Of a DNA stretch of 64,000 nt, positions 11,570-45,600 are shown piece by piece (within the stretch, counting starts at the first letter, position 1; every line of letters starts with the position of its first letter). The stretch is taken from the NCBI RefSeq assembly GCF_000378045.1, contig NZ_KB899093.1, positions 1-64,000 of the forward strand. The letters are read 5' to 3'. The stretch comes from Marinobacterium rhizophilum DSM 18822 (GTDB taxonomy: Bacteria > Pseudomonadota > Gammaproteobacteria > Pseudomonadales > Balneatricaceae). The notes below the pieces were generated by a model. It searched no databases, was not told the origin of the DNA, and worked only from the letters and a program-made list of their open reading frames with translations. The position numbers and the translations under genes were made by a program.

Positions 11570-11577
11570 TTCCAGCG

Positions 11578-29540: not shown

Positions 29541-29556
29541 TGGCATAGCGTTTGCT
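29541..29556 (+). promoter_or_regulatory. sigma-54 promoter of the sugar-acid island
   Basis: TGGCATA-GCGT-TTGCT fits the sigma-54 consensus TGGCAYR-N4-TTGCW exactly. The -12 element ends 31 nt before the kinase ATG. A PrpR-type sigma-54 activator encoded at 43002 is the obvious candidate regulator. The site also shows that the upstream-extended reading frame from 29527 is not translated. Confidence 0.85.
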
Positions 29557-29586
29557 TTTACAGTCAGGACAGGAGATGACAATAAG

Positions 29587-30768
29587 ATGAAAAAATACCT
29601 TGTTCTGGCTGATGATTTTACCGGCGGCCAAGAAGTTGCCGGAAAATTAAAGCAAAAGCACATCACAACCGGCGTGGCGCTGTCCGTAGAGGGTGTGGAA
29701 AGCCTGTTCTCACAGCATCAGGTTGTTGTGCTTAATACCGACAGTCGATTGATGAGTGAAGATGAGCTGCGTGAATGTTATCACCGCATATTTCATACAC
29801 TCGATATGAGTCGGTACTGCGTGGCGAAGAAGATAGATTCGTTGTTGCGCGGCCCTATCGGCTTTGAACTGGCGCAGATCAAGTCCTACCTACCGAATGC
29901 CAGGTTTATCGTCTCGGTGCCGGTGCTTAGTGAAGGTCGCACTGTGATGAACGGCGAGGTGCTCATCAAGGGCGTCAGGCTGACTGAATCTGAACTCGCG
30001 CATGATCCCCTGAATCCGATACTCACTTCATCGATTGCCGAGAAAATCGTCAGCGATTCAGCGATGACCGTGGCCTCTGTTCCCAATGGGAATGATGAGC
30101 ACAATCTCCACGCTTGCATCGCTGAACAGCTCAAAACCCACGATGTTGTTGTGGTCGATGCCGTGTCCCAGGACGACCTGAATTCTATTCCCACCTTGTT
30201 GCCCGATACGGTGCTGGTTGGATCGTCTGATGTCATTTCTCTCGTGGGGTCTACAGCCGGGAAGTGGCTGTTTGTGGTGGGAAGCCTTCACCCTCGCTCC
30301 CGTCAGCAAGCTGATTACATGGTGGAGACCCTCGGTGCTGTCGATGTATCAGTGGATGTCATCAGTTGGCAAAAAGATCCGTTGGATTACCTGGATCGAC
30401 TGGTTGCCGTTGCACTGGAGTGTGCTGAATCTCAGCGGTACTTCATCATCAGGACGCAGTTGCCGGAATCCGGCGTTATCACCAAATCGGATTCGCGCAA
30501 TGCCGCCAATTGTCTGGCTGATATGGCGCAACGCATTGCGTTGGCTCTGCCAGTGCTTCAAATCGTATGTTGTGGTGGCGAAACGACCGCTGTACTGCTG
30601 CATCGCAGTGGGGCTCAGGCGGTCTCGATGGAACATGCCAGTGAAAAGACGATGCCCCTTGGAAGAGTCGAGGGGGGTGTTTTTGATCGCGCCTATATTG
30701 CGTCTAAACCCGGCTCCTTTGGCGAGCCCGAACTGTTTGTGAGGATGGTAAACCATGCTACAGCCTGA
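29587..30768 (+). CDS. DUF1537 four-carbon acid sugar kinase family protein
   Basis: A 393-residue kinase of the DtnK/OtnK/LtnK family, which phosphorylates C4 sugar acids (threonate, erythronate) at O4. N-terminal ADDFTGGQEVAGKL matches the family's DDxTGA-type start; KKIDSLLRGPIG is the conserved K-DS-LRG motif; the C-terminal nucleotide domain has VVGSLHPRSRQQ and VCCGGETTAVLL. CAGGAG lies upstream of the ATG at 29587. It is the first gene after the sigma-54 promoter and overlaps the next gene by 14 nt. Together with PdxA2 in this island it points to a 4-phospho-threonate/erythronate route, but the exact substrate is open. Confidence 0.88.
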   Translation: MKKYLVLADDFTGGQEVAGKLKQKHITTGVALSVEGVESLFSQHQVVVLNTDSRLMSEDELRECYHRIFHTLDMSRYCVAKKIDSLLRGPIGFELAQIKSYLPNARFIVSVPVLSEGRTVMNGEVLIKGVRLTESELAHDPLNPILTSSIAEKIVSDSAMTVASVPNGNDEHNLHACIAEQLKTHDVVVVDAVSQDDLNSIPTLLPDTVLVGSSDVISLVGSTAGKWLFVVGSLHPRSRQQADYMVETLGAVDVSVDVISWQKDPLDYLDRLVAVALECAESQRYFIIRTQLPESGVITKSDSRNAANCLADMAQRIALALPVLQIVCCGGETTAVLLHRSGAQAVSMEHASEKTMPLGRVEGGVFDRAYIASKPGSFGEPELFVRMVNHATA

Positions 30769-31891
30769 TCTGATCGCGAATGTTTTAAGCGGCTATCAAA
30801 GTTTCAAGAATATAGCGCATTACATTGCCAAGGGTGACAGAGTTGTTGTTGTCACCTCGCAGGCGCTGAAGGAACTGGATGCCGTAAAGCAGCTGGTAGC
30901 GCTCGTCGAAGAGTGTGCTTCAGTGGTTCGTATCGTAGACGACGTGCCGGCGGAGCCCAGGGTATTCGATATGGCGGCGATCGCCTCGGCTATAGGTGAC
31001 GAACCGGTCGATCAGGTGATCGGTATCGGCGGTGGCAGCGTGCTGGATACCGCCAAGGTGTTGGCCGCGCTGGTGCAGGGCGATCTGTCGCTGGAGGCGA
31101 TGCTGAGCGGGACTCCGCTGTCGGCACGCAAAGGGTTGATCCTTATACCTACGACGGCCGGTACCGGTTCTGAAGCGACGCCGAACGCGATATTTGCGGT
31201 ACCGGAGAAGAATAATAAGGCAGCGATCATCAGCCACATGCTTAAGCCTGATCTGGTAATTCTCGATCCCTTTTTCCTTGAATCACTGCCTAAATCTTTG
31301 ATCGCCTCCACCGGCTTCGATGCGCTGGCGCACTGTCTGGAATGCTTCACATCGAGCAAGGCTAATCCTATCAGTGATTTCTACGCCTTCAACGGGGCGA
31401 TTGCGCTGCTGAAGAACATTCGTGCGGTGCACAACGATCCCCATGATGTGGCTGCGTGGCAGAAGATGTTGTTTGCCTCCTATTGTGGCGGATCTGCCAT
31501 TGCCTATGCCGGCACCCATATTGTGCATCTGCTGTCTTATCCTCTGGGAGGGCGTTACCACGTGCCCCATGGAGTTGCCAACGCGATGTTACTGGTGCCC
31601 TGTTTTCAAGAACACCTGCCCAGCTACAGCGGAAAACTTGCGCAGATCGCCAGCTCGCTGTTCCCCGCAGAGAAACGCGCTGACCTGGATATGAGCAAAC
31701 TGCTGATGAATTATATTGAGGACTTGTCTGGCGAATTTGAACTGCCAACCTCCTTTGCCGGATGCAATCTGCCCAGCGTTGATGTGGATGGCTTGATTAC
31801 AGATGCAATGACGATTCGGCGTCTAATTGAAAACAGCCCGGTTCCCATTACGCCGGAAGATGCGAAAAATATATACTCGCAGTTTGCTTGA
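30755..31891 (+). CDS. iron-containing alcohol dehydrogenase
   Basis: A 378-residue group III alcohol dehydrogenase. The NAD site is GIGGGSVLDTAKV, followed by IPTTAGTGSEATPNAIF. Iron ligands lie in TGFDALAHCLE (Asp, His), in GTHIVHLLSYPLGGRYHVPHG (several His) and nearby. It would interconvert an aldehyde and an alcohol, for example the aldehyde released by the downstream aldolase or an entry-step hydroxy acid. It overlaps the kinase gene and is 46 nt upstream of the aldolase gene. Confidence 0.9.
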   Translation: MLQPDLIANVLSGYQSFKNIAHYIAKGDRVVVVTSQALKELDAVKQLVALVEECASVVRIVDDVPAEPRVFDMAAIASAIGDEPVDQVIGIGGGSVLDTAKVLAALVQGDLSLEAMLSGTPLSARKGLILIPTTAGTGSEATPNAIFAVPEKNNKAAIISHMLKPDLVILDPFFLESLPKSLIASTGFDALAHCLECFTSSKANPISDFYAFNGAIALLKNIRAVHNDPHDVAAWQKMLFASYCGGSAIAYAGTHIVHLLSYPLGGRYHVPHGVANAMLLVPCFQEHLPSYSGKLAQIASSLFPAEKRADLDMSKLLMNYIEDLSGEFELPTSFAGCNLPSVDVDGLITDAMTIRRLIENSPVPITPEDAKNIYSQFA

Positions 31892-31937
31892 GTTAGTTGC
31901 GGATTAGCTAAATAACAAATAATAAAGGGCGATTTTT

Positions 31938-32807
31938 ATGGGTGTGTTTACAGGTGTTTATACAGCGATCATTACACCTTTTGCTGACGATGAAGCTGTT
32001 AACTTTTCTCAGCTTTCAAAACTGGTCGAGCGGCAGATAGGGTTTGGTAATAACATTTTTTGTAACGGTACCAATGGCGAGTTCTACGCGACAACCTTTA
32101 GTGAAAAAATTGATATCACAAGGCAATGCGTCGAGGCGGTCTCCGGCAGGGCAAAGGTTATTGCCCATATCGGGTGTGCCTCCACTCGCGAATCGATCCT
32201 GTTGGGTAAGGAAATACAGCGGCTTGGCGTCGATGCCGTATCCGCCATTACGCCTTATTTCATTCCGTGCACGCAAAGCGAGATAGAGCGTCATTACGCG
32301 ACCTTAGCCGATGCGCTTGAGGTGCCGTTGTTCCTCTACACCATTCCTGCGCGCACGGGTAATACCCTGGAGAAAGCGACGGTGCGCAAACTGTCCGAGC
32401 ACCCCAATATTGTTGGCATAAAAGACAGTACAGGCACCCAGGAGAGCCTGGATGGTTACCTTGAACTGCGGCAAGAGTGCAACATCGAGGTCATGACCGG
32501 GCCTGACTCCCTGATCCTGCACGGATTTCAGAATGGTGCCAGTGGCTGTGTGTCGGGTCTGGCCAACGTGCTGGGCCAGGAGGTCAATGATATCTGGCGT
32601 AACTTCAGCCAAGGTAATGTGGAACAGGCTTCTGCCGCTCAGGACAAGGTTACCGCCATGCGCCAGTCGCTGTATTCGCTAGGCTTTCCGCCCGATATGG
32701 TGAAGGAAGCGATGTATGCAATTAATACTGAAAATGGACTGAGCAGAAGTCCCAAAGGTCAACTGCGTGATCTGAGTGAGACTGTCAGGGATTTACTTAA
32801 AAGCTGA
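31938..32807 (+). CDS. DapA/NanA-family pyruvate-dependent aldolase
   Basis: A 289-residue TIM-barrel class I aldolase of the dihydrodipicolinate synthase/N-acetylneuraminate lyase family. It has the Schiff-base Lys in IVGIKDSTG, the catalytic Tyr in LFLYTIPARTGN, and the carboxylate-binding loop GTNGEF. Context (sugar-acid kinase, ADH, PdxA2) argues for a catabolic 2-keto-3-deoxy acid or hydroxy-keto acid aldolase that releases pyruvate, not for lysine synthesis. AATAAAGGGCG precedes the ATG. Confidence 0.88.
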   Translation: MGVFTGVYTAIITPFADDEAVNFSQLSKLVERQIGFGNNIFCNGTNGEFYATTFSEKIDITRQCVEAVSGRAKVIAHIGCASTRESILLGKEIQRLGVDAVSAITPYFIPCTQSEIERHYATLADALEVPLFLYTIPARTGNTLEKATVRKLSEHPNIVGIKDSTGTQESLDGYLELRQECNIEVMTGPDSLILHGFQNGASGCVSGLANVLGQEVNDIWRNFSQGNVEQASAAQDKVTAMRQSLYSLGFPPDMVKEAMYAINTENGLSRSPKGQLRDLSETVRDLLKS

Positions 32808-33007
32808 TTTATTCGATACGATGGTTGGCCTTTTTTTGAAGGTCTGATGTGCTATCTAGTGAGGTATGAGGATGAATAAATGTGAACCGGGTTTTACATG
32901 ATAAAAAAGCTAGGATCGTGACTAGGATGCCTGGAAAGATTTGAGTATTCTGGCGCGAAAATAATAAGTACGAGTCATTTTTGAATAAGAATAAAAGGAG
33001 TAATACC

Positions 33008-34516
33008 ATGCGCAATTTATTCGCATGCATGTTCGGTGTCGCTGTTTCTGCTATGTCCGCTGCGCCGACGTTCGCCGCGTCCAACGACGTCACTATCGTT
33101 CTGAGTGAAGACCTGGACGTTATGGATCCTTGTATGTCATCCCGATCTAACATCGGGCGTGTCATTCTGCAAAATATATCTGAAACACTGACAGAACTGG
33201 ACGGCAGTGGCGGGGGTCTTCGTCCCCGTCTTGCTCAGAGCTGGGAAGCGGTCGATGATCTGACCTGGCGTTTTCACCTGCGTGAAGGCGTCAAGTTCAC
33301 CGATGGCTCCAGTTTCGATGCCGAAGATGTAGCCTATTCGCTTGAGCGTGCTACCAGTCCCAAGCTTTCTTGCGAGATCGGTGCAAAATACTTCGGCGGT
33401 ATCGAACTGACGCCCAAGATTATCGATGCGCACACAATCGACTTCACTGCCAAAGTCGGACAGCCGATCCTGCCGCTGCTGATGTCCTCGTTGACGATTG
33501 TCCCCTCGGGGCTCAGTCCGGACGCCTTTATGCGCGTGCCGGTCGGCACCGGGCCCTATGTTTTCAAATCCCGCGCTATCGGACAGAACATCGTTCTGAC
33601 CCGCAACAACGACTACTGGGGTGAAAAGCCGGACGTCGAGAATGCCACCTATATTTTCCGCTCCGACATCGCGGTGCGGGCGGCGATGGTGCAGACCGGT
33701 GAGGCCGATATTGCACCGAGCATCTCGCAGGAGGATGCGAACAACTCGGCAACTGACTTCTCTTATCCAAACTCGGAAACCCTCTATCTGCGACTGGATA
33801 ATGAGATCCCGCCGCTGAACGATCGTCGCGTACGTGAGGCGCTCAACCTGGCGATCGACCGAGATGCCTTCCGTGGCACCGTGCTTCCGAAGGACGTGAT
33901 CCTGGCGAGTCAACTGGTTCCGCCAACGACCATGGGTTGGAATCCGGATGTGCCGGTACAGCCATACGATTTGATGAAGGCAAAGGCACTGCTGGCCGAA
34001 GCAAAAGCGGATGGCGTTCCGGTTGAGACTGAGCTGGAACTGGTGGGCCGCGCGAACATGTTCCCGGGCTCAACGGAAACGATGGAAGCCATCCTGTCCA
34101 TGCTCCAGGAAGCCGGCTTCAACGCCTCTCTGAGAAACTTCGATGTGGCCGAGTGGGTTAACATGTACACGAAACCCTATGCTGAGAACCGGGGGCCTCA
34201 GCTGATCGAAGCGCAACATGACAACGCCAAGGGAGATCCGGTATTCACCATGTACTGGAAATACCACAGCCAGGGAGAGCAGAGCACGATCAGCGATCCG
34301 ACTGTCGATAGCCTGATTGAAGCGGCGACCAGCGCTACCGGTGAAGAACGCGAGCAGCTCTGGAAGAAAGTGGCAGCCGAGGTCAACGACCGGATCCTGT
34401 CAGATGCCGTGCTCTTCCATATGGTGGGCTTCAGCCGAGTGTCCGAGCGACTTGATTTCAAACCGACCATTTCCACCAATAGTGAACTGCAGTTGGCTCA
34501 GATCAAGATCAAGTAG
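33008..34516 (+). CDS. family 5 ABC transporter substrate-binding protein
   Basis: A periplasmic binding protein (502 residues) of the DppA/OppA/nickel family. The signal peptide runs to about FAAS; then DDVTIVLSEDLDVMDPCM-type N-terminus, VKFTDGSSFDAEDVAYSLERA, VPVGTGPYVFK and RVREALNLAIDRDAF are all family hallmarks. AAAAGGAG lies before the ATG at 33008, while the frame extends upstream without signal-like sequence. It belongs to the island's ABC importer; members of this family also carry opines, sugars and oligosaccharides. Confidence 0.93.
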   Translation: MRNLFACMFGVAVSAMSAAPTFAASNDVTIVLSEDLDVMDPCMSSRSNIGRVILQNISETLTELDGSGGGLRPRLAQSWEAVDDLTWRFHLREGVKFTDGSSFDAEDVAYSLERATSPKLSCEIGAKYFGGIELTPKIIDAHTIDFTAKVGQPILPLLMSSLTIVPSGLSPDAFMRVPVGTGPYVFKSRAIGQNIVLTRNNDYWGEKPDVENATYIFRSDIAVRAAMVQTGEADIAPSISQEDANNSATDFSYPNSETLYLRLDNEIPPLNDRRVREALNLAIDRDAFRGTVLPKDVILASQLVPPTTMGWNPDVPVQPYDLMKAKALLAEAKADGVPVETELELVGRANMFPGSTETMEAILSMLQEAGFNASLRNFDVAEWVNMYTKPYAENRGPQLIEAQHDNAKGDPVFTMYWKYHSQGEQSTISDPTVDSLIEAATSATGEEREQLWKKVAAEVNDRILSDAVLFHMVGFSRVSERLDFKPTISTNSELQLAQIKIK

Positions 34517-34609
34517 GCCCGCGAGAAAGCCTGTTCATTGCTCGTACGTACTGGGCATGGAGTGAGCCAATAGACTGGAAAGCGCGCAAGCGATTTCAAA
34601 GTCGAAAAG

Positions 34610-34631
34610 ACCAGGGAGTCCGCTCCCTGGT
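34610..34631 (+). other. hairpin between binding-protein and permease genes
   Basis: ACCAGGGAG, loop TCCG, CTCCCTGGT: a perfect 9-bp stem without a T run. Such hairpins commonly protect the binding-protein mRNA and keep permease expression lower. Confidence 0.7.
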
Positions 34632-34664
34632 TACCCCTGAACATAACTTCAGGTCCCCGAGGCT

Positions 34665-35582
34665 ATGATGAAATCATTTATAGGCAGAAGAGCGATAAGC
34701 AGCGCAGTCTCGCTTGGCGGTCTTATTGTGCTGGTATTTTTCCTTACTCGCCTAACCGGCGACCCGACGAATCTGTATCTTCCACTCGATGCACCGATGG
34801 AAGCGCGTGATAATTTCCGGGTGCTGCATGGACTCAATGATCCGCTGATCGTGCAGTTTGGCAGCTACGTCTACGATGTTCTGCACCTTGATTTTGGTGA
34901 GTCAATCCGCAAGGCGCGTCCTGCGCTTGAGGTGGTGCTGGAGGCATTCCCCTGGACGCTGACCTTGGCTGTGGTGACGATGGGGTTGGTTACCCTGTTC
35001 GCTATCATCATCGGTTCTCTTGCAGCGGCCAGGGTCGGCGGTGTATTCGATCGTCTATCCGGCATCATGTCCCTGATTGCCGCCAGTACGCCGGAGTTCT
35101 GGGTTGCAATCGTCGGTATCTTTATTTTCGCGGTTAGCCTGGGCTGGTTGCCCACATCCGGTACCGGAACCATCTGGCACTGGGTGCTGCCGATAACTGT
35201 CCTGTTTATTCGACCCTTTGGCTTGATTCTTCAGGTCGTGCGCGGCTCGATGATCTCGGCGCTTTCCTCGCCGTACGTGAAGACAGCACGCGCCAAAGGG
35301 GTTCGTCAGCGGGCTATCATTTTCGTTCACGCCCTGCGTAACGGCATGCTTCCGGTGATCACTGTGATCGGCGATCAGGCCGCGGGTATGCTAAACGGCG
35401 CCGTCGTGATCGAAACCATTTTCGGTTTTCCCGGTGTCGGAAAGCTCATGATCGACAGTATTCTGCAGCGCGATTTTTCGGTCGTGCTTGCCTCGATCAT
35501 GGTAACGGCGCTGGCGATATTCATTATGAATCTTCTGATTGACCTGCTGTACGCAGTGCTCGATCCCCGAATCAGGTATTGA
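34665..35582 (+). CDS. DppB-type ABC transporter permease
   Basis: A 305-residue permease with six transmembrane segments. It has the family N-terminus (RRAISSAVSLGGLIVLVFFLTRLTGDP), a binding-protein-dependent transport EAA-like loop (YVKTARAKGVRQRAIIFVHALRN), and the C-terminal DLLYAVLDPRIRY typical of DppB/OppB proteins. Two ATGs are in tandem; the second is better spaced from GAGG. It pairs with the DppC-type permease 4 nt downstream. Confidence 0.93.
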   Translation: MMKSFIGRRAISSAVSLGGLIVLVFFLTRLTGDPTNLYLPLDAPMEARDNFRVLHGLNDPLIVQFGSYVYDVLHLDFGESIRKARPALEVVLEAFPWTLTLAVVTMGLVTLFAIIIGSLAAARVGGVFDRLSGIMSLIAASTPEFWVAIVGIFIFAVSLGWLPTSGTGTIWHWVLPITVLFIRPFGLILQVVRGSMISALSSPYVKTARAKGVRQRAIIFVHALRNGMLPVITVIGDQAAGMLNGAVVIETIFGFPGVGKLMIDSILQRDFSVVLASIMVTALAIFIMNLLIDLLYAVLDPRIRY

Positions 35583-35585
35583 GTC

Positions 35586-36524
35586 ATGGCCGCATCATCC
35601 ACGAACTGCACCGGAGTGGCTCCGATGCTTGAGGTACCCCGACATCCCGCCCTGACAATAATGAAATTGTTATGGGCCGATAAATTTGCATGCATCGCAG
35701 CGCTGTTCCTGGTCCTGATTGTGGTTTGTGCTGCGATTGGCCCTTACTTTCTGGAAGACGCAGCAAGCAAGCTGAACCTGCGTGGCCGCAATGCCCCTCC
35801 ATTTGACTGGAGCCAGGGTTGGTTATTCATGCTGGGGGCCGACTCGCTGGGACGCAGTATCCTGGCGCGCATCGCGGTTGCTGCGCAAAATACGATCCTG
35901 ATTGCCAGCTGCGCTGTGTTTGCATCGCTGGTGATCGGCGGAGCGCTGGGCCTGATCGCCGGTTACTCGTCGCGCCGTTTGGGTGACACGATTATGCGCC
36001 TGGCCGATGTGATCATGAGTTTCCCCTCGCTGCTGCTGGCGGTGATCGTACTCTACATGATGGAGCCGAGCGTACTGAATCTGGTGCTGGTGCTAGCGAT
36101 CACCCGCATTCCGGTTTATCTGCGCACCACACGTGCGGAGGTGCTGGAGATTCGTGAGCGGATGTTCGTGCAGGCGGCTATCGTCATGGGCGCATCCCGT
36201 ATGCGCATCATCTTCGGACATATGTTGCCGATTGTCGTGCCGACCCTGATTACCATCGGTACGCTCGACTTCGCCTTTGTCATGCTGGCCGAATCCGCGC
36301 TGAGTTTCCTGGGTATCGGCATTCAGCCGCCTGATATCACGTGGGGACTGATGGTGTCTCAAGGCAAGGCTTACCTGCATCAGGCGTGGTGGCTTTCATT
36401 TTGGCCTGGGATCGCGATCATCTTGACGACCATGTCTCTCAATCTTTTGTCGGGGTGGTTGCGTATCGTGCTCGATCCGGTGCAGCGCTGGCGGCTTGAA
36501 ATGGGGGGGAAGAACAATGACTAA
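35586..36524 (+). CDS. DppC-type ABC transporter permease
   Basis: A 312-residue permease. It has an N-terminal TM followed by a periplasmic loop with LGADSLGRSILARI, then the core of five TMs with the coupling loop YLRTTRAEVLEIRERMFVQAA and IIFGHMLPIVVPTLI, and a C-terminal LNLLSGWLRIVLDP. An in-frame ATG at 35625 has GGAG 8 nt upstream and may be the true start (299 residues). The stop overlaps the ATPase start. Confidence 0.92.
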   Translation: MAASSTNCTGVAPMLEVPRHPALTIMKLLWADKFACIAALFLVLIVVCAAIGPYFLEDAASKLNLRGRNAPPFDWSQGWLFMLGADSLGRSILARIAVAAQNTILIASCAVFASLVIGGALGLIAGYSSRRLGDTIMRLADVIMSFPSLLLAVIVLYMMEPSVLNLVLVLAITRIPVYLRTTRAEVLEIRERMFVQAAIVMGASRMRIIFGHMLPIVVPTLITIGTLDFAFVMLAESALSFLGIGIQPPDITWGLMVSQGKAYLHQAWWLSFWPGIAIILTTMSLNLLSGWLRIVLDPVQRWRLEMGGKNND

Positions 36525-38178
36525 CACCAATAGCCAGTACCGGCACATTCTAGAAGTGAAGGAGCTCGCCGTTGAGTTCCACACGGCTAACGGCCGTTTT
36601 CAAGCGGTCAAGAATGTCAGCTTCCACCTGGATCGGGGTGAAACCCTGGCGATCCTGGGCGAAAGCGGTTCCGGTAAGAGTGTGTCTGCATCGGCGATCA
36701 TGAACCTGATCGATACACCGCCGGGCTATATCACCCAGGGTTCGATCCATTACCGCGGGCAAGACCTGCTCAACATGAGTGATGTACATCGGCGTGACAT
36801 CAATGGCGCCAAGATTGCGATGATCTTCCAGGATCCGCTGGCGCACCTGAATCCTGTGTATCCGGTCGGGTGGCAGATTGCCGAAAGCCTGCGTGTGCAT
36901 GGTGTCGATAAGGACAAGGCAAACCAGCGCGCGCTCGAGTTGATGAAACGCGTTGGCCTGCCTGACGCGCAGGAGAAGTTTGATGCCTACCCGCACCAGT
37001 TTTCTGGCGGTCAGCGCCAGCGTTTGATGATCGCCATGGCACTGGGGTTCGAGCCGGATATCCTGATCGCTGACGAGCCGACCACAGCGCTGGACGTTAC
37101 CGTTCAGGCGCAGATCCTGGAATTGCTGGAGGAGCTGCAGGCGGAAACCGGCATGGGGATATTGCTGATTACGCACGACCTCGGTGTTGTCGCTGAAACT
37201 GCCAATCGGGTGGTGGTGATGAACCAGGGGGAAATTGTCGAAAGCGGTCTGACGCGCGAGGTGTTCAAGAATCCGCAGCATTACTATACCCGAAAGCTGA
37301 TAGCAGCCGCGCCTGGACATCTGGGGCGTCAGGGCGGAGCGACCGGTTTGCGTGAGGGGCGGGATGCGCTGCTGAGTGTCGAGAACGTGGTCAAGTACTA
37401 CGGCAAATTCAAGGCAATTAAAGGCGTCAGCTTTGACCTGATGCCGGGTGAGACCGTCGCCATCGTCGGTGAATCGGGCTCCGGCAAGTCGACCATGGCC
37501 AAGACGCTGCTGCGGCTGGAGGAACCCAGCGAAGGTAAGGCCCTGTACAAGGGACGTGACCTGTTTGAACTCAATCCGAAGGAACTCTTTGAACTGCGTC
37601 GTGAGATTCAGATGGTGTTCCAGGATCCGACCCAGTCGCTCAATCCCCGCATGACGGTGGAGAAACTGGTTTGTGAAGCCTGGAAGATTCATCCACAACT
37701 CCTACCCAGGGCTAAATGGAAGGAGCGCGTCGCTGAGCTGCTGGTGCAGGTTGGGTTAAGTCCCGAGCATGCGGCGCGTTATCCCCACCAGTTTTCCGGT
37801 GGTCAGCGTCAGCGCATAGCAATCGCCCGAGCGCTGGCCTTGAGCCCGGAACTGATCGTCTGCGACGAAGCGACCTCTGCGCTCGACGTCTCGATCCAGG
37901 CTCAGGTGATAAAACTGCTGAGCGATCTGCGCAGGGATCTGGGGCTGTCCTTTATTTTTATTGCGCATGATCTGCCGGTGGTACGCGACTTCGCCGATCG
38001 AGTAATTGTCATGAAGGATGGCGAGATAGTGGAAGTCGGGGAGGTCGAGCAGATCTTCAACCATCCTGCTCATCCCTATACACGGGCGCTGCTGGATGCG
38101 AGCCCCGACGCCGACCCGGATGTACAGGCACAGCGGCGTGAAAAACGGGAGCGTGAGCGACGCATGGCGGTGGTGTAG
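36517..38178 (+). CDS. fused DppD-DppF double ABC ATPase
   Basis: One polypeptide of 553 residues carrying both nucleotide-binding domains of a peptide-type importer. Half 1 has GESGSGKSVSAS (Walker A), the signature FSGGQRQRLMIA and ADEPTTALDVT. Half 2 has GESGSGKSTMAKT, FSGGQRQRIAIARAL and CDEATSALDVS. All catalytic motifs are intact in both. The family-5 C-terminal PAHPYTRALL tail ends half 2. The ATG at 36517 follows GGGGGGAAG and overlaps the previous stop by 8 nt; a TTG start at 36496 is less likely. Confidence 0.94.
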   Translation: MTNTNSQYRHILEVKELAVEFHTANGRFQAVKNVSFHLDRGETLAILGESGSGKSVSASAIMNLIDTPPGYITQGSIHYRGQDLLNMSDVHRRDINGAKIAMIFQDPLAHLNPVYPVGWQIAESLRVHGVDKDKANQRALELMKRVGLPDAQEKFDAYPHQFSGGQRQRLMIAMALGFEPDILIADEPTTALDVTVQAQILELLEELQAETGMGILLITHDLGVVAETANRVVVMNQGEIVESGLTREVFKNPQHYYTRKLIAAAPGHLGRQGGATGLREGRDALLSVENVVKYYGKFKAIKGVSFDLMPGETVAIVGESGSGKSTMAKTLLRLEEPSEGKALYKGRDLFELNPKELFELRREIQMVFQDPTQSLNPRMTVEKLVCEAWKIHPQLLPRAKWKERVAELLVQVGLSPEHAARYPHQFSGGQRQRIAIARALALSPELIVCDEATSALDVSIQAQVIKLLSDLRRDLGLSFIFIAHDLPVVRDFADRVIVMKDGEIVEVGEVEQIFNHPAHPYTRALLDASPDADPDVQAQRREKRERERRMAVV

Positions 38179-38224: not shown

Positions 38225-38264
38225 GGGGGCTTCTGCACTTTAAGTCCCCCCATGCAGAAAGGGA
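38225..38264 (+). promoter_or_regulatory. alternative hairpins in the TerC gene leader
   Basis: GGGGGCTT (38225-38232) can pair with AAGTCCCCC (38242-38250), or TTCTGCA (38231-38237) with TGCAGAA (38253-38259). The two are mutually exclusive because they share bases and the second encloses one arm of the first. The second ends next to the GGGA ribosome binding site. This could be a small translational switch. Confidence 0.4.
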
Positions 38265-38271
38265 TTCAGTC

Positions 38272-38913
38272 GTGTTTGATGCGATATCGCTGGATGTGAT
38301 GAGCAGTCTTTTGCAGGTTGTCATGATCGACCTGGCCCTGGCCGGCGACAATGCCGTGGTGATTGGTCTGGCCGCCGCCGGTCTGCCCGCCAGCCAGCGC
38401 AATAAGGCGATTGCTATTGGCATAGCAGCGGCCACCATTTTGAGAATACTGCTGGCAACTGTTACCACTGAGCTACTTGACGTCATCGGTTTGCTGCTGG
38501 CCGGCGGGTTACTGCTGCTGTGGGTGTGCTGGAAAATGTTCGGTGAACTCCAGGCCTTGAGGAAGGCGGCGCTGGTCGCCGTCGAGGCGCAGGGACATCT
38601 GTCGTCTCAGTCGGGCGGGGCAACCAAGTCCCTGCGACAGGCTGCGGTGCAGATCCTCGTCGCCGATCTCTCCATGTCTCTGGACAACGTGCTGGCCGTA
38701 GCGGGCGCTGCACGGGAGCATCCTGGCGTGTTGATTTTTGGTCTGGCGGTATCCATCGGCATGATGGGACTTGCGGCCAACTATATTGCCGGACTTCTGC
38801 AGCGTCACCAATGGATCGCCTATATGGGGCTGATCATCATTTTGTATGTCTCGCTCGACATGATCTGGCGCGGCACTATGGATCTGGCACCCCATGTTGC
38901 ATCCCTGTATTAA
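38272..38913 (+). CDS. TerC/YjbE-family membrane protein
   Basis: A 213-residue inner-membrane protein of about seven TMs with the two family motifs IDLALAGDNAVVIGLAA (residues 18-34) and ADLSMSLDNVLAVAGAA (about 129-145), whose acidic residues bind metal. YjbE/Alx/TerC proteins are linked to manganese export or to metalation of secreted proteins. The start is GTG with GGGA 7 nt upstream. It sits downstream of the ABC ATPase on the same strand; a role in the catabolic island is not evident. Confidence 0.88.
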   Translation: MFDAISLDVMSSLLQVVMIDLALAGDNAVVIGLAAAGLPASQRNKAIAIGIAAATILRILLATVTTELLDVIGLLLAGGLLLLWVCWKMFGELQALRKAALVAVEAQGHLSSQSGGATKSLRQAAVQILVADLSMSLDNVLAVAGAAREHPGVLIFGLAVSIGMMGLAANYIAGLLQRHQWIAYMGLIIILYVSLDMIWRGTMDLAPHVASLY

Positions 38914-38971
38914 CCGGGATCTTGCCGTGCGGCGCCGTTGGACAATTTGAACAAATAACAGGAGCTGCTTC

Positions 38972-39718
38972 ATGTTGTTAAAAGGTAAGGTGGCTATCGT
39001 AACAGGCGCCAGCCGGGGTATTGGCAGAGCCGTGGCGATGACGCTCGCCCGCAATGGCGCCTGCGTGCTGATACACGGTACCAATGAAATCAAGCTTAAT
39101 GCGCTGGCAGACGAGATAGCCACTTTTGCCGACAGGCCCCTGGTGTTTGCCGGCGATGTTGCTGACGTTGCAACTGCGCAAGGGGCAGTGTCGCTGGTGC
39201 ATGAGCGGTTTGGGCGCGTGGATATACTGGTCAATAATGCGGGTATCAACATGAGAAGCTCCACCCTCGATATGCGTATTGAGGAGTGGCAGAGGGTTGT
39301 CGACGTCAACCTCAACGGTACCCTTTATTTCTGCCAGGCTGTGTTGCCGTTGATGATCGAGCAGGGTGCCGGCCGCATTATCAATGTCAGTTCGACGACG
39401 GCCAAAACCGCACACAAGAATGCGGCCCCGTCATACGGTGCATCCAAGGCGGCGGTCAACTATCTGACGATGCATCTTGCGCTGGAGATGGCCGGTCACG
39501 ACATTCTGGTGAATGCAGTCTGTCCAGGCCCGGTGGAGACGGATATGAGCGAGCAGTGGAGCGAGGAGTATCGCCAGAGGGTCGTAGCCGGAGTGCCCCT
39601 TAAACGGCTCGGCACGCCGCAGAATGTGGCAGATGTCGTACTGTTTCTGGCCAGCGAGATGTCGGGATTCGTAACCGGAGAGTTGATCAACGTCAATGGC
39701 GGAACCTACATGAACTGA
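38972..39718 (+). CDS. SDR-family oxidoreductase (FabG-like)
   Basis: A 248-residue classical short-chain dehydrogenase. It has the NAD(P) motif TGASRGIGRA at residue 12, NNAGIN, the catalytic Ser in NVSSTT, the YGASK active site, and the C-terminal FVTGELINVNGGTYMN. In this island it most likely oxidises a hydroxyl of the sugar acid or its alcohol precursor. CAGGAGCTG precedes the ATG, and a terminator follows, making it the last gene of the plus-strand block. Confidence 0.9.
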   Translation: MLLKGKVAIVTGASRGIGRAVAMTLARNGACVLIHGTNEIKLNALADEIATFADRPLVFAGDVADVATAQGAVSLVHERFGRVDILVNNAGINMRSSTLDMRIEEWQRVVDVNLNGTLYFCQAVLPLMIEQGAGRIINVSSTTAKTAHKNAAPSYGASKAAVNYLTMHLALEMAGHDILVNAVCPGPVETDMSEQWSEEYRQRVVAGVPLKRLGTPQNVADVVLFLASEMSGFVTGELINVNGGTYMN

Positions 39719-39789
39719 TTCGGCGTCGATCTGAGTCATCAGATTGCCAGTTAAAACTTGCCGGAGCCAGAACCTTTGGCATCCTTGTT

Positions 39790-39815
39790 AGCCGCCGTCC
39801 CAGCGGCTTTTTTTT
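39790..39815 (+). terminator. intrinsic terminator after the SDR gene
   Basis: AGCCGC, loop CGTCCCA, GCGGCT followed by eight Ts, 71 nt after the SDR stop. It ends the plus-strand catabolic block. Confidence 0.92.
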
Positions 39816-40406
39816 GGGCTAATCGCGCGGTGCCGGGAAATGCTGCTCTGGTCTTCGGGAGACTGTCGTCCCTGTTCCGCTATTCTTGCGTCATCCGCTT
39901 GAACATCTTGATGCTGATTCATCCCTTTCAAAGTGTAAACCCCGCTGTTTCGGTGCCCGCCATTATCAAAGCTCAGCCTGTTGTTATATAGAGCGAGCAG
40001 GCCAACCGTCAGGGCTGCTTGCGACTTTCCATGGTCATCCCGCACCCATGGTCCAGCGTGTGAGGAAAGCGTTTTCGCTGGGCATTTATCGCATCGCGTT
40101 TAACCGGCTTTCCTGCCGCTGGGCTGGTGTTCTCGGCATTTTGCAACGAACCGCAACGAACCGATGTGCCCGAAGGGTAATGATCGATGGCTGGGGGAAT
40201 ATGAGGTGAGAAGGGGCCGGTTCCCGACGTATGCAGGTCGGGAACCGGACGTTAAAAATGGATATTGAGCCGGTGGCAAATGACGTCGTCAGCACCGGTT
40301 TAATACAGGGGTGCAGGACACGCCACCCTTGGCCAATGGCCAATGCGAGCCCTTGAAAAATCGGGGGGTCACAAAATTCCGCCCCGATTATCAAGGGCAA
40401 CGATGG
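39816..40406. other. 590 nt without a gene, containing a long hairpin
   Basis: No coding ORF is supported. At 40217-40248 CCGGTTCCCGAC and GTCGGGAACCGG make a perfect 12-bp stem with an 8-nt loop and no T run on either side. Its function is unknown. Confidence 0.5.
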
Positions 40407-40427
40407 AACGGGCCAGGACGGCCTGTT
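40407..40427 (-). terminator. hairpin after the BNR protein gene
   Basis: AACGGGCC and GGCCTGTT form an 8-bp stem with one G-U pair, 20 nt past the stop of the minus-strand gene. There is no clear T run. Confidence 0.45.
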
Positions 40428-40446
40428 TCATCGCCCGGTTGATAGA

Positions 40447-41631
40447 TTAATTGCCGGTCTGTTTGATCCACGCCTCATCAAGTACGAAGTGCCGGATGAA
40501 CTGGCGGTGGTAGGTAAAGGCCACATGGATACGGCCGTCTGCCGCCTGGGTTACCGAGGGGTAGGAAAACTCTCGGTTGAGTTTGCGTTCAGAGTTATTG
40601 GTCATGCAGTAGCCGTCGCCCCGCATGATGTCCCTTTTGTACTGCCAGCTGCGGCCGCCGTCGCTCGATAGGGCAATGCTCATCGGTGCCCTGGGCGTTC
40701 CCCAGAAGGCGGAGCGTTGTTGCATGTTGGCGAGGTCGGGAAGGGTGGCGCTATCGTCTTCGTCCTCAATTTCGTCGTACAGCGAGACGCGGCGCTCGGT
40801 CTGTTCATCCGCCTGAGAATGGTTGTAAACCAGGGCCAGGTGGCCATTGTGGAGCTTGACGAACTGGATCGACGAGTTGTTGTTCGGCAACTCGGTTGGC
40901 TCAGGTTCACTCCAGGTTCGGCCGTTATCTTCGGAGCGACTGCAGTAAATCCAGTCGGCCCAACGGCTGCGATACAGTGCGATCAGGCTGCCGTCATTGA
41001 GCTGTTGAATTCCCATATGAACACATCCAACACTGTTGGGAACTTCAACTTCACTCCAGGATAGACCGCCATCAGTGCTGATCTTGACCGCGCTGATGTC
41101 ATTGTTCCCAACCCACTTTTCACCAGGCTGGGTACAACAGTAGAAGAGGGGAAGCAGCAGGTCGCCGTTTTCCAGGATCACCGGAGGTTCGCGGACAAAA
41201 GTTCCGGGCTGGGTGAACAGGTCCTCGACCGGTCCCCAGGTCTGGCCATCGTTGTCGGAGATGCGGCGCCGGACGATGGACGTGTCCTGATTACCGGATT
41301 TCTGCGCGGTATAGAGAAGCCAGAGACGAGCGTCCGGCGCTCTGAACAGAATGGGATTCTGCTCCGAACGAGTGGGGTCGTCCGACAGCTGGATCGGTGC
41401 GTCCCACACCATGGTGCCCGCTGGGAGCCGGGACATCATCACCGATATATCGGACATTCCTTCCTGGGTGCCGCCAAACCATACGCAGAGCAGGTCGCCA
41501 TTGCCAAGTGGCAACAGATTGGCAGCATGGTTTTGAGGATAAAGCGAAGGAATATCGGCGTATGGTAGTTCGGCGATGTATTCAATGCTGGTATCGGACA
41601 GGGTGTTATTGTTGTCTTGTAGAGAGGTCAT
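40447..41631 (-). CDS. BNR/Asp-box sialidase-like protein
   Basis: A 394-residue beta-propeller of the sialidase/neuraminidase-like fold (PF13088 type). Four Asp-boxes (S-x-D-x-G-x-x-W) are visible: SDNDGQTW, STDGGLSW, SEDNGRTW and SSDGGRSW. There is no signal peptide or anchor, so the protein should be cytoplasmic, acting after uptake by the ABC transporter. Catalytic Arg triad assignment is uncertain. The gene lies 32 nt downstream of pdxA2 and shares its operon. It may cleave a glycoside or lyase-type product; sialidase activity itself is not implied. Confidence 0.82.
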   Translation of the reverse strand: MTSLQDNNNTLSDTSIEYIAELPYADIPSLYPQNHAANLLPLGNGDLLCVWFGGTQEGMSDISVMMSRLPAGTMVWDAPIQLSDDPTRSEQNPILFRAPDARLWLLYTAQKSGNQDTSIVRRRISDNDGQTWGPVEDLFTQPGTFVREPPVILENGDLLLPLFYCCTQPGEKWVGNNDISAVKISTDGGLSWSEVEVPNSVGCVHMGIQQLNDGSLIALYRSRWADWIYCSRSEDNGRTWSEPEPTELPNNNSSIQFVKLHNGHLALVYNHSQADEQTERRVSLYDEIEDEDDSATLPDLANMQQRSAFWGTPRAPMSIALSSDGGRSWQYKRDIMRGDGYCMTNNSERKLNREFSYPSVTQAADGRIHVAFTYHRQFIRHFVLDEAWIKQTGN

Positions 41632-41663
41632 CGTATTCGTCCAGAACTGATTGAATTGAATTA

Positions 41664-42677
41664 TCAGGCTGCGTGGCTGCTTTTCTCGCGGTTGGCCAAT
41701 TCGATGGCTTGCCTGAGCGCTTCGAGCAGGCTGCGTTCGTCGGCGATACTCTTGCCGGCAATATCAAACGCGGTACCATGATCGACCGAGGTGCGTATCA
41801 CCGGCAGACCTACGGTAATATTCACGCCGGCTTCCAGTCCCAGCACCTTGACCGGGCCATGCCCCTGATCGTGATACATTGCGACGACGATGTCGAAGTC
41901 ACCGCGCCCGGCCCGGAAAAACAGGGTGTCAGCCGGCAGGGGACCTTCGACGTTCCATCCCCGGCTATGGGTTTCCTTGATCGCCGGAATGATTTTATCT
42001 TCCTCTTCACCGTAGCCAAACAGACCGTTTTCACCGGCATGGGGATTGATGCCACAGACCCCGATACGCGGATTCTCGATACCGGCGCGTTGAAGTGTGT
42101 CATGTGCTCGTTCAATGGTACGCAGTACCAGGCCTGGCTCGATCTTGTTGATTGCGTCAATCAGACCGATATGGGTGGTCACGTGGATGACGCGCAATCC
42201 GGGTGCGGACAGCATCATCGATACCTCTTCTACCCCCACCAGGTGGGCCAGAATCTCGGTGTGACCGGGGAATATATGACCGCCGGCATGCAGGGCTTCC
42301 TTATTCAGCGGGGCCGTGCAGATCGCCTGCAGTTCTCCATCCTTGATCAGGTCAATCGTCCGTTCGATATAGCGATAGGCTGCATCACCCGCGACAGGGG
42401 ATATCTTGCCGAACGGCAGATCCTCTGGTATCAGGCCCAGGTCGATACAGTCTACGGTTCCAGGGGTAAACAGTGCATCTCTGGGGTGCTCGATGGTATT
42501 AAATTTTAACCCTGTACCGACGATCTCATCGGCTTTCTGCAGCCGCTTCGTATCGCCGATGATCAGCGGATGGCAGGTGTCATAGAGTTCCGGGTGGGCC
42601 AGACTTTTGACGATGATCTCCGGTCCGATTCCCGCCGCATCGCCCATGGTGATGCCAATTACAGGTTTTAAAGCCAT
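41664..42677 (-). CDS. pdxA2: PdxA2-type 4-phospho-threonate/erythronate dehydrogenase
   Basis: A 337-residue metal-dependent NAD dehydrogenase of the PdxA family. It has the N-terminal ITMGDAAGIGPEII, ICTAPLNKEALHAGGHIFPGHTE and C-terminal AMYHDQGHGPVKVLG with VGLPVIRTSVDHGTAFDIAG. PdxA2 proteins act in C4 sugar-acid catabolism: they oxidise 4-phospho-D-threonate (or erythronate), which decarboxylates to dihydroxyacetone phosphate. The DUF1537 kinase at 29587 is the usual partner. GGAG lies 7 nt before the ATG. It heads a minus-strand unit with the BNR gene, divergent from the sigma-54 activator. Confidence 0.9.
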   Translation of the reverse strand: MALKPVIGITMGDAAGIGPEIIVKSLAHPELYDTCHPLIIGDTKRLQKADEIVGTGLKFNTIEHPRDALFTPGTVDCIDLGLIPEDLPFGKISPVAGDAAYRYIERTIDLIKDGELQAICTAPLNKEALHAGGHIFPGHTEILAHLVGVEEVSMMLSAPGLRVIHVTTHIGLIDAINKIEPGLVLRTIERAHDTLQRAGIENPRIGVCGINPHAGENGLFGYGEEEDKIIPAIKETHSRGWNVEGPLPADTLFFRAGRGDFDIVVAMYHDQGHGPVKVLGLEAGVNITVGLPVIRTSVDHGTAFDIAGKSIADERSLLEALRQAIELANREKSSHAA

Positions 42678-42697
42678 GATTTACTCCAGCGGTGATG

Positions 42698-42726
42698 TTA
42701 TCGTACGATAATGACTGAAACAGTCA
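42698..42726. promoter_or_regulatory. two adjoining palindromic operators before pdxA2
   Basis: TTATCGTACGATAA (42698-42711) is a perfect 14-bp palindrome, immediately followed by TGACTG-AAA-CAGTCA (42712-42726), a perfect inverted repeat. They lie 20-50 nt upstream of the pdxA2 ATG in the divergent spacer. The DeoR-type repressor or the PrpR-type activator of this island are the likely binders. Confidence 0.7.
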
Positions 42727-43001
42727 TAATATGATCGAATCAATCTATTTGTGCAAGTGATTTGGCTACTTTTTGGGCAGTCAGGGTGGCTTTGCTGAGG
42801 GTAAGCGGGGCTTCAGACCGTATCGTTTACTGTCTTATACTGATTTGATCGGTTCTGTCATTTCTGGAGGGTTTGGTCACCGACGGTGGCTTCAGGTCTC
42901 GGTGGGACTCAATCGTGCGCGCCGAAAACATGATAACTTGTGATACTGAATAAAAAATCTATCCCTCCATGGGGACCCGAAGAGTCAAGGCAAATCAGCT
43001 T

Positions 43002-44822
43002 ATGCATCCCGTATGCTTCATTGCACCTTATAAAAAACTGGCCAATCTGGCTTCTCGTCGTGCCGCTGCGCTGGCGTTGAACATTGACGTTATAGAAGGC
43101 GATCTATACGAAGGGCTCGCCGCAGCTCGCAACGGTATCCGCTTCGGCAATCAGATTGTGATCAGCCGTGGCGGTACCGCTCAGCTGATCGATGATCAGC
43201 TCGATGTCAAGGTGGTGCATCTGCGTTACACGCCGTTCGATTTTCTGGAGCACCTCGGGAATTTGCCGGGCCGTACCTGTGCCGTGATCGGCTTTGCCGA
43301 CCTGGTGCCTACTGCTGAGAAAACCTATGGCGCCCTGGGTTTGTCATTGCTGTATATCAATCTGGATATGCATCAGGATCAGGAGAGCCTGACGGAGCTT
43401 ATCCGTCTCAAGGGTGTGAACCTGATCATCGGTGACGCGGCGGCGGGCAACATTGCCATGCGGGGCGGTGTGGATTTCAAACTGGTGGAGACGGGGGAGT
43501 CATCGATTGATGAAGCCCTGAAGTCCGCGTCCGAATACTACCAGTACATGTTTGACATGAGTCAGAAGCAAAGTCAGTTGGTGCAGATCACCAACGCAAT
43601 CGACTGTGGTTTTCTGCTCGTGGACGAGAGCCTGAATATTGTGCGCTCCAAGGATCACTATGATCTCAATATTCAGTCCCCGACCGATATCGACCAGAAG
43701 ATCAGCCGGCTGATCCAGGAAAAACGTGAGGTCAAGGGTGAGGTGTTTCATCGACAGGGGGATGATTACACCTATTCGATCTATCCGATTTATACGATGG
43801 ATCAGTGGGACGGTGCGCTGATACTGATGCACGCAGTCGAGCAGCTCAATGACATCAGCGGCCGCGTGCGCAAGAACCTGCGTTCCCGGGGGTTTTATTC
43901 CAAATACCGTTTCAGTGACATTCTGCATAACAGCAAGGTAATGGCCGCTTGTGTCGATAAGGCAATGAGCTATGCCGTTACCGCCAGCAGCATTATGATC
44001 AATGGTGAGTCCGGAACCGGCAAAGAGTTACTTGCCCAAAGCATCCACAGTCACAGTGCCTTCAGCGAAGGTCCCTTTATCGCTATCAATTGCAGTGCGA
44101 TTCCCGCCGGGCTCGTAGAGAGTGAGCTGTTCGGATATGCCGAAGGCGCCTTTACCGGCGCGCGGCGCAGCGGCAAGGCGGGGTTGTTTGAACAGGCACA
44201 CGATGGAACCCTGTTTCTTGACGAGGTGGATGCGCTCGATATGAGCGCGCAGGCGAAGATACTGCGTGCGCTACAGGAGCGGGAGATCGTCCGGGTCGGA
44301 GACAGCAAGGTGATACCGGTGAATATCCGCATCATCTCCGCCTCCAACAAGTGCTTGCCGGACGAGATCAGGGGCGGGCGTTTTCGTCAGGATCTGTATT
44401 ACCGCCTCAACGTATTGCACCTCAAGATCCCGCCGTTGCGCGAGCGTTTGGAAGACCTTGTGCCGATGTTCACCGCGTTCTTCGAGCGGTTGTCCGGTGA
44501 GCGTCGAGAGCCAGCGCTTGGTGCACGGGAAATAGAACAGCTCCAGCAGCATAGCTGGCCCGGCAATGTGCGTGAGCTGCAGAACATTTGTGAGCGCTAT
44601 TTTCTCACCGGCGCACTGGATTTTGACGCCTTCGACCAGTCAGAGGAGGCAGAGGGCGGCACAGCGCTCGACCTGTACCGGCCGTTAAGAAAGATTGAAG
44701 AACAGATAGTTCTGGCGCTGTACGATGCCGAAGGCAGTATCAGCAAGGTGTCGACTATTCTGGGCATCGACCGTGCGACGGTGCGTAAAAAGCTGAATGA
44801 GTCGGGCACGGACGCATCCTGA
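43002..44822 (+). CDS. PrpR-type sigma-54-dependent transcriptional activator
   Basis: An enhancer-binding protein of about 606 residues. The N-terminal PrpR_N sensor domain starts [20 protein letters not shown] and includes [13 protein letters not shown], then a short PAS-like linker. The AAA+ domain has [16 protein letters not shown] (Walker A), [13 protein letters not shown] (the sigma-54 contact loop GAFTGA), [10 protein letters not shown], and [13 protein letters not shown]. The C-terminal Fis-type HTH is [19 protein letters not shown]. It probably activates the sigma-54 promoter at 29541. The ATG at 43002 starts the domain; an upstream ATG at 42969 has no better ribosome site. Ligand unknown. 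Confidence 0.93.
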
Positions 44823-44838
44823 AACCTGGCCATCAGGT

Positions 44839-45600
44839 TCAGGCCAATTGTAGCCTTATATGGGGCTTCGTCCTGAAAGGTTGCAGGAAGTCGGCTGCCT
44901 CATCTGCATCGGTGATCAGGGTCCAATCGAAATGCATCGGTGTCCAGTAGGGCTGATTACCTTCGCCGATCTTGGAGCTGTCGGCCAGAACAAAGGTCTG
45001 TGCAGCCCGGGCAATCATGCACTCCTTTAGATACGCCTGCTCCTCGCTTGCCTCGCACAAGCCCCTGTCGGCAACCACGCCATCGGCGCTGAGGAACACC
45101 TTGTCGGCGCTAAAGCGAGTCAGCGCGTTCTGAGCAACCGGGCCAAAGGTGGACATGCTGGAGCTTCTCAATTCGCCACCAAGGAGTGTCAGTTTGATCT
45201 CGGGGTTGGCGGTCAACAGGGGGACAGCGAGCAGGTTATTGGTGATGACGTGCAGCTGTGTGCGGCCGGACAACAGATTGGCCAGCGCACAGAGGGTCGT
45301 TCCACCATCGAGAATGATCACATCGCCATCATTGATGAACGACATCGCCACTTTGGCGATGCGCTTTTTCTCCTGGTTGTAAAGCTCGCGTCTGTGCTCT
45401 ACCGGCATCTCTGGCACGTGGCTCTGGCGCTGCTGGGCGCCGCCGTAAGTGCGAATAATCGAGCCTTCTTCAGCCAGTGCTGTCAGATCGCGCCGGACCG
45501 TCGCCTCCGATACGCCCAGGCGCGAGCATAGCTCATTAACATTACTCACTCCGGCGTGCACCAGTTCGAGTATGGTTCGGCGTCTGTTCGCTACTTTCAT
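44839..45600 (-). CDS. DeoR-family transcriptional repressor
   Basis: A 253-residue DeoR/GlpR regulator. The N-terminal winged HTH has RRRTILELVHAGVSNVNELC and VSEATVRRDLTALAEEG with RTYGGA, the family signature. The C-terminal DeoRC sugar-phosphate sensor has ILDGGTTLCALANLL and VFLSADGV with VLADSSKIGE. It should respond to a phosphorylated sugar intermediate, fitting the kinase-led pathway. The ATG at 45600 is used; a GTG at 45612 would add four residues. It is convergent with the sigma-54 activator. Confidence 0.9.
   Translation of the reverse strand: MKVANRRRTILELVHAGVSNVNELCSRLGVSEATVRRDLTALAEEGSIIRTYGGAQQRQSHVPEMPVEHRRELYNQEKKRIAKVAMSFINDGDVIILDGGTTLCALANLLSGRTQLHVITNNLLAVPLLTANPEIKLTLLGGELRSSSMSTFGPVAQNALTRFSADKVFLSADGVVADRGLCEASEEQAYLKECMIARAAQTFVLADSSKIGEGNQPYWTPMHFDWTLITDADEAADFLQPFRTKPHIRLQLA

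Follow-up and report, generated by a model that had tools for sequence, protein, structure and literature searches.

D-threonate is reportedly degraded by the pathway of DtnK and PdxA2, in which a DUF1537 kinase and a dehydrogenase lead to dihydroxyacetone phosphate (DHAP), and Zhang et al. (2016) are said to have described the biochemistry of both steps. Such kinases are known; where D-threonate arises in nature is, to our knowledge, not obvious. We analysed 64,000 nucleotides of the Marinobacterium rhizophilum DSM 18822 genome (contig NZ_KB899093.1, positions 1 to 64,000; hereafter, the window) that contain a gene island (Table 1) with the same two enzyme types and the same predicted product. 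Here, however, an aldolase, a reductase, a BNR/Asp-box protein and, across related clusters, varied importers are attached upstream, and therefore D-threonate would be an intermediate and not the starting compound. Two other described systems are close. Like the E. coli sialic acid operon nanATEKQ, these clusters combine an aldolase of the NanA family with a dedicated symporter and, in many of the relatives, with a ring-opener of the YhcH family, but they differ in having a DapA-type arginine in place of the NanA leucine, a branch for a four-carbon acid and no amino-sugar kinase or epimerase. The 5-dehydro-4-deoxyglucarate route (KdgD) in Paracoccus shares 3-deoxy-2-keto-aldarate chemistry, a DapA-family enzyme and a related ABC importer (binding protein 54%, ATPase 70%), but acts on a six-carbon diacid by dehydration and decarboxylation followed by an aldehyde dehydrogenase, with no kinase or PdxA in the stretch.

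With middling confidence, we read the island as encoding the breakdown of a seven-carbon 3-deoxy-2-keto-aldaric acid, most probably the 3-deoxy-D-lyxo-2-heptulosaric acid (DHA) of pectin rhamnogalacturonan II (RG-II). Only tentatively do we go further and propose that it is a complete, undescribed DHA pathway, in which aldolase, tetruronate reductase, D-threonate kinase and PdxA2 yield pyruvate and DHAP; our literature searches, which covered only open-licence papers, found no described DHA pathway. Under this scheme, the compound would be imported by the family-5 ABC system here and by SSS, SLC13, MFS or perhaps TRAP carriers in relatives, and the BNR protein, together in many versions with a short-chain dehydrogenase/reductase (SDR) or YhcH, would prepare the ring or glycoside form. 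The DapA-like aldolase would then cleave the open form, releasing pyruvate and threuronate, a four-carbon aldehyde-acid, the Fe-dependent alcohol dehydrogenase (Fe-ADH) would reduce the aldehyde to D-threonate, the DUF1537 kinase would form 4-phospho-D-threonate, and PdxA2 would oxidise and decarboxylate the latter to DHAP. The kinase and PdxA2 steps are known for relatives, while we infer the steps from import to Fe-ADH and the identity of the substrate. The first-pass annotation had outlined import of an acidic sugar, an aldolase cut, and phosphorylation and decarboxylation of the four-carbon part, an outline that appears to fit our findings; it lacked the role of Fe-ADH, D-threonate, the seven-carbon diacid parent and the wide distribution.

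To sample relatives, we used an alignment of BNR proteins to scan genome contigs, which gave 355 relatives, and kept the best 80 loci with flanks of up to 10 kb; genes were tallied by tblastn with the cluster proteins at identity thresholds that we set for each family. All four core enzymes were present in 59 of these 80 loci, some of them in 7 (five on contig pieces shorter than 14 kb) and none in 14 (by gene: kinase 62, PdxA 64, Fe-ADH 63, aldolase 63). Since 59 of 80 loci selected by their BNR protein hold all four, the grouping of the core enzymes is not due to chance. These 59 loci come from Enterobacterales, Burkholderiales, Rhodocyclaceae, Alphaproteobacteria and Bacillota. Thus, the possibility raised with the first-pass annotation, that kinase, aldolase and PdxA2 might never co-occur outside this strain, is itself refuted: the three stand together in many genomes. 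Moreover, Fe-ADH and aldolase are same-strand neighbours in 57 of the 62 loci with both, and of the 61 pairs of adjacent kinase and PdxA genes, 21 are fusions, mostly in Burkholderiales. The fused protein is a single reading frame of roughly 700-835 residues (e.g., L012:7094-9400, L036, L040).

Matches to a stretch with the regulator, pdxA, the kinase and the start of Fe-ADH were found in 1044 of 5426 complete E. coli genomes. In the one E. coli record that we opened, the cluster lies between glnS and nagE and encodes a DeoR regulator, D-threonate 4-phosphate dehydrogenase, dtnK, Fe-ADH, a DapA-like protein, TerC, BNR, YhcH and an SLC13 permease. On S. meliloti pSymB, the same core and a BNR gene accompany a related ABC importer, and other versions with a BNR gene occur in Alloyangia, in Klebsiella, Azospirillum and Caballeronia plasmid records, and in Rhizobium ACO-34A, where the fetched stretch stops short of any kinase. 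In Pantoea vagans, the core is present but no BNR gene is annotated near by. In one Klebsiella cluster (L009:6504-12000), sequencing error or decay has broken the reading frames of BNR, Fe-ADH and SDR. In 14 of the 80 loci, the BNR gene has no core gene near by, and 12 of these consist of symporter, BNR and SDR. When we searched 13 of these 14 genomes (L077 was excluded), three Pantoea and two Bacillus genomes were found to have kinase, PdxA, Fe-ADH and aldolase together at a second site; in a sixth, the fetched kinase region had no other core gene, and seven had no kinase or only distant ones, whose surroundings were not fetched. Because five BNR-only genomes hold the core at another place, the core can be separated from the upstream part (importer, BNR, SDR or YhcH), yet the two stand together in many genomes.

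The case for D-threonate begins with the kinase. The window kinase falls in the DUF1537 superfamily (SBD_N 117 and NBD_C 55 bits, gathering scores 25 and 28), and residues D9, D10, R54, K82, D84, E94 and G330-G331 are common to it and all 15 aligned cluster kinases; the window PdxA passes the general PdxA model TIGR00557 (365 vs. 290 bits). The kinase of a Pectobacterium cluster passes the D-threonate kinase model and matches PDB 4xfm from end to end (862 bits, nearly identical), an entry that is filed as an uncharacterized protein and that we take to be the P. atrosepticum D-threonate kinase. Of the 10 E. coli records among the matches listed, 9 likewise carry the RefSeq name D-threonate kinase. 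Since the window's own kinase and PdxA miss the cut-offs of the specific models (see below), D-threonate is assigned as its four-carbon acid provisionally, from these relatives.

The case for a seven-carbon diacid rests on the aldolase and Fe-ADH together. The window aldolase scores below the models for DapA (4-hydroxy-tetrahydrodipicolinate synthase, TIGR00674; 188 vs. 206 bits) and for the N-acetylneuraminate lyase NanA (TIGR00683; 122 vs. 382 bits). We aligned 27 aldolases picked for likeness to that of the window, leaving out L042 and L057. The positions of the Schiff-base lysine (Lys161) and of Tyr133 are invariant in all 27, as is expected of the NanA/DapA superfamily, while the second Thr of DapA is Asn and its Tyr107 is Phe, again in 27 of 27. 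At the position of DapA Arg138, which we take to bind the carboxylate of aspartate semialdehyde, 21 have R and six have K, compared to L in E. coli NanA; R is also found in the S. meliloti, Alloyangia and E. coli cluster aldolases. To judge from the alignment, the presence of this presumed carboxylate-binding arginine in most cluster aldolases agrees with a diacid substrate. Aldolase paralogs exist elsewhere in the genome.

Fe-ADH family reductases convert aldehydes to alcohols. If Fe-ADH acts on the aldolase product to give D-threonate, this product would already be carboxylated, that is, a four-carbon aldehyde-acid; if the other product is pyruvate, the aldolase substrate would therefore be a 3-deoxy-2-keto-heptarate. 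We followed the stereochemistry on paper: in the D-lyxo compound, C4 to C6 read left, left, right, and loss of C1-C3 with reduction of C4 yields D-threonate. The identical procedure turns 3-deoxy-D-manno-octulosonic acid (KDO) into D-arabinose, and the C4 epimer (D-xylo) gives D-threonate too. The stereochemistry thus points to DHA, presumably the natural sugar with the D-lyxo configuration. DHA is placed in pectin RG-II by one source (PMC6353982). The recurring YhcH ring-openers and the sialidase fold of the BNR protein (see below) also speak for DHA.

Several observations weigh against this interpretation. The window kinase is far below the D-threonate kinase model NF047819 (135 bits, cut-off 450), which just three of eight tested cluster kinases pass (L020, 616; L065, 489; L013, 520 bits), and it is only 16-25% identical to the 15 aligned cluster kinases; likewise, the window PdxA is below the model for D-threonate 4-phosphate dehydrogenase PdxA2 (NF002891; 334 vs. 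583 bits). The pattern at the basic position comes from aldolases chosen to resemble the window's, L042 and L057 apart, and the G148 and Rhizobium ACO-34A clusters carry an aldolase of another subfamily with I or L there. A nearby kinase is missing from two Pantoea ananatis loci (L010, L076) and from a contig piece of P. stewartii (L071), which otherwise contain the cluster. The pathway does not account for the SDR, which by our references is absent from 16 of the 80 loci and which the E. coli record also lacks, or for the recurring TerC, Nramp and DUF475 genes. Finally, no DHA-releasing enzyme was identified beside a cluster, although neighbours were sampled and not scanned in full.

We considered that identical chemistry might serve another parent, either a different 3-deoxy-2-keto-aldarate or a conjugate, with the BNR protein or the SDR converting some other precursor. 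This seems unlikely to us, since DHA is the only natural compound of this kind known to us; nevertheless, the C4 stereocentre is lost on cleavage, such that D-lyxo and D-xylo are not distinguished, and because the BNR gene is separable from the core (the 14 loci above, 12 with symporter and SDR) and transporters vary, what is imported may differ from the substrate of the aldolase. We find it distinctly unlikely that the island serves D-threonate (or D-erythronate) utilization, with aldolase, Fe-ADH and BNR acting on separate substrates: the four genes occur together in 59 of 80 loci and as a second-site block in five genomes, and the adjacency of Fe-ADH and aldolase (57 of 62) also speaks for a joint role. 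Even so, carbon flow between the two halves is only predicted, and according to two papers (PMC10971088; PMC10079672), a DUF1537 kinase with PdxA2 alone already constitutes a known D-threonate pathway.

The NanA-family aldolase, SSS symporter, YhcH and sialidase-fold protein recall sialic acid operons and so bring to mind the breakdown of a 2-ulosonic monoacid such as KDO or sialic acid. This is highly improbable, as cleavage of a monoacid gives an aldose or an amino sugar, from which a reductase cannot yield D-threonate; moreover, the NanA leucine is found at the Arg138 position in none of the 27 aligned aldolases (the two of the other subfamily have I or L), and neither ManNAc nor arabinose genes were seen in the annotated clusters that we read. 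It is likewise highly improbable that the island takes up and degrades a metal chelate, with the importer as a metallophore system. Among NCBIfam models, the window binding protein scores best against those for nickel and glutathione binding proteins, in each case far below cut-off, and TerC, DUF475 and Nramp genes do recur, but the core enzymes are sugar-acid enzymes. Siderophore uptake was also rejected as a theme, since the FecCD and Peripla_BP_2 neighbours look ordinary. The seven-carbon diacid pathway is the interpretation that we retain: the enzyme families are ordinary and their order informative, and the clusters are probably versions of a widely carried sugar diacid pathway that ends in the known D-threonate steps.

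The BNR protein resembles GH33-type sialidases, in which a Tyr/Glu pair and three arginines have the catalytic roles. Its structure model (pLDDT 87) has the sialidase propeller fold, and in profile alignments R221, R314 and Y357 are in register with Arg, Arg and Tyr of sialidase 9eob (this tyrosine column is Gln in two chains nearly identical to 9eob). In contrast to GH33 sialidases, to which it is 18% identical over 312 residues, it has His205 in register with the glutamate of 9eob and of NanC, and no signal-like N terminus (judged by eye, with no predictor); the first arginine column of GH33 appears to be His35 in an alignment made by hand only. The BNR protein has only part of the GH33 residue set, and we read it as an enzyme that may act on the ring or a glycoside of a 2-keto acid, not as a proven sialidase. 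The earlier suggestion that it opens the imported compound is possible but unproven. A weak profile match to 5mqr (E 0.043), presumably a Bacteroides RG-II enzyme, is a lead only.

The importers swap among clusters. SSS symporters are present in 71 of the 80 loci, family-5 ABC importers in the window, S. meliloti, Alloyangia and Rhizobium, SLC13 in E. coli and MFS in Pantoea vagans, and a TRAP-like gene lies beside the G148 cluster (TRAP genes were not tallied over the 80 loci). The window binding protein is 58% and 62% identical to those in the like clusters of S. meliloti and Alloyangia, and among plasmid DNA, the ABC genes have their best match in Paracoccus, beside 5-dehydro-4-deoxyglucarate dehydratase. 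The S. meliloti ABC gene SMb20144, which may belong to the pSymB cluster, is placed under organic acids/alcohols in PMC2848018; if it does belong there, this would speak against a metal chelate. An SLC13-like gene in the window (26310-27827) was rejected as a counterpart of the E. coli permease (30% over 147 residues only). YhcH-family proteins, which were shown to supply an aldolase with a cyclic 2-keto-3-deoxy acid in its open form (PMC8141875), occur in 31 of 80 loci. The window's SDR type is that of eight Bacillota loci (57-68%), and most proteobacterial loci have another type.

TerC matches were found in four of the 80 loci and in the E. coli cluster that we opened, and among the 80 only in loci without SSS (4 of 9 vs. 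0 of 71; P = 8e-5, although loci are not independent); the L017 gene lies 3.5 kb from its cluster. Since TerC accompanies an SLC13 permease in the E. coli cluster, we rejected TerC as a substrate importer replacing SSS, and an accessory role is more likely. Overall, TerC, DUF475 or Nramp genes recur in or beside the clusters of the window (38272-38913), L017, L018, L038, L089, L122, L119 (15121-16155) and L052 (8545-9915). Transition metals are reported to speed the anomerisation of Neu5Ac (PMC8141875). Other neighbours include a hydantoinase-like protein and a family-5 binding protein after the Symbiopectobacterium cluster (L031:12525-18073; similar in Serratia, L033) and a GH78 (rhamnosidase family) gene adjoining the Alloyangia cluster (L119:1-2575).

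The first-pass annotation had called the island sigma-54-controlled, which is supported only before the kinase, where a good -24/-12 site with one mismatch is found; no site was found before pdxA-BNR or the importer in the window. One-mismatch sites also occur in a duplicated fragment (L008) and before the Lucifera kinase (L027); of the other six activator-like loci, four have no site, and L060 and L062 have two-mismatch sites only. In loci without an activator, 113 kinase and aldolase starts had two-mismatch sites in six cases and a one-mismatch site in none, and the second-site Bacillus clusters (L109, L110) have no site. Such sites are not enriched across the window (12 found vs. 15.6 expected at two mismatches or fewer). 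The window activator has the PrpR_N domain, AAA domain and GAFTGA loop of the PrpR type and is below the cut-off of the PrpR-specific model TIGR02329 (310 vs. 499). Sigma-54 activator-like matches are present in 7 of 80 loci (the PrpR_N domain of these was not checked) and DeoR-like matches in 54; no inverted repeats were found before the kinase. We conclude that sigma-54 control of the kinase operon is likely, as predicted from these sites. The fragment L008 (G000:C9, ~151220-151408), elsewhere in the same genome, duplicates the kinase promoter and roughly the first 60 codons, with 87% DNA identity to window 29446-29765; it adjoins an apparent IS110-type transposase start (by eye) and looks like a trace of rearrangement or of a second copy.

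Gene identities in the window were assigned by Pfam and NCBIfam profile searches (Table 1). Every gene that had been named before (kinase, Fe-ADH, aldolase, importer, SDR, PdxA2, BNR, PrpR-type activator and DeoR regulator) was confirmed; the earlier list was incomplete, as it omitted the TerC-family gene. The longest open reading frame of the kinase is 29527-30768, and since the start quoted earlier (29541) is the first base of the -24/-12-like sequence inside it, initiation at the ATG at 29587 is more likely. Directly downstream of the island, at 47380-52204, are a TRAP transporter (DctM, DctQ, DctP) and a LysR regulator; the TRAP genes (47380-50302) were rejected as part of the cluster, DctM being just 29% identical to the TRAP-like protein in G148. 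An FMN riboswitch lies at 11400-11571 (108 bits). A close BNR protein is found in 2 of 244 sampled genomes of the window's order, its own included, and a close kinase in none of six genus mates; thus, the island was probably acquired.

Table 1. Features of the island, in window coordinates
Feature	Position	Strand	Evidence
Sigma-54 type -24/-12 element TGGCATAGCGTTTGCT	29541..29556	+	1 mismatch to TGGCAC-N5-TTGCW; ~31 bp before likely kinase start
DUF1537 four-carbon acid sugar kinase, putative D-threonate kinase	29587..30768	+	SBD_N 1e-33, NBD_C 2e-14
Fe-ADH, putative reductase of four-carbon aldehyde-acid	30755..31891	+	Pfam/NCBIfam
DapA/NanA-family aldolase, putative retro-aldolase giving pyruvate	31938..32807	+	DHDPS family 2e-58; Lys162 and DapA-type Arg139 present
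Family-5 ABC solute-binding protein (SBP_bac_5), TTG start as called	32981..34516	+	Pfam
ABC permease 1 (BPD)	34665..35582	+	Pfam
ABC permease 2 (BPD)	35586..36524	+	Pfam
Fused double ABC ATPase, 560 aa, two ABC stretches	36496..38178	+	Pfam
TerC family (YjbE type) membrane protein, between ATPase and SDR	38272..38913	+	Pfam/NCBIfam
SDR oxidoreductase	38972..39718	+	Pfam; subfamily of the eight Bacillota loci (57-68%)
BNR/Asp-box protein, sialidase fold; putative action on ring or glycoside form of 2-keto acid	40447..41631	-	BNR_2 1e-68
PdxA2-type dehydrogenase, putative 4-phospho-D-threonate dehydrogenase (decarboxylating)	41664..42677	-	PdxA 1e-107
PrpR-type sigma-54 activator, GAFTGA motif	42969..44822	+	PrpR_N and sigma-54 activator domains
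DeoR-family regulator	44839..45612	-	Pfam/NCBIfam

If the proposed pathway is correct, D-threonate would be made inside the cell from a pectin diacid, giving D-threonate kinases a natural source of substrate and explaining a variant carried by about a fifth of complete E. coli genomes. It would give gut E. coli, rhizobia, soft-rot bacteria and bacilli a shared way to degrade one of the rarest sugars of plant cell walls, and would add a sialidase-fold enzyme in which histidine replaces the catalytic glutamate. Purified enzymes and S. meliloti 1021 allow direct tests of the pathway.

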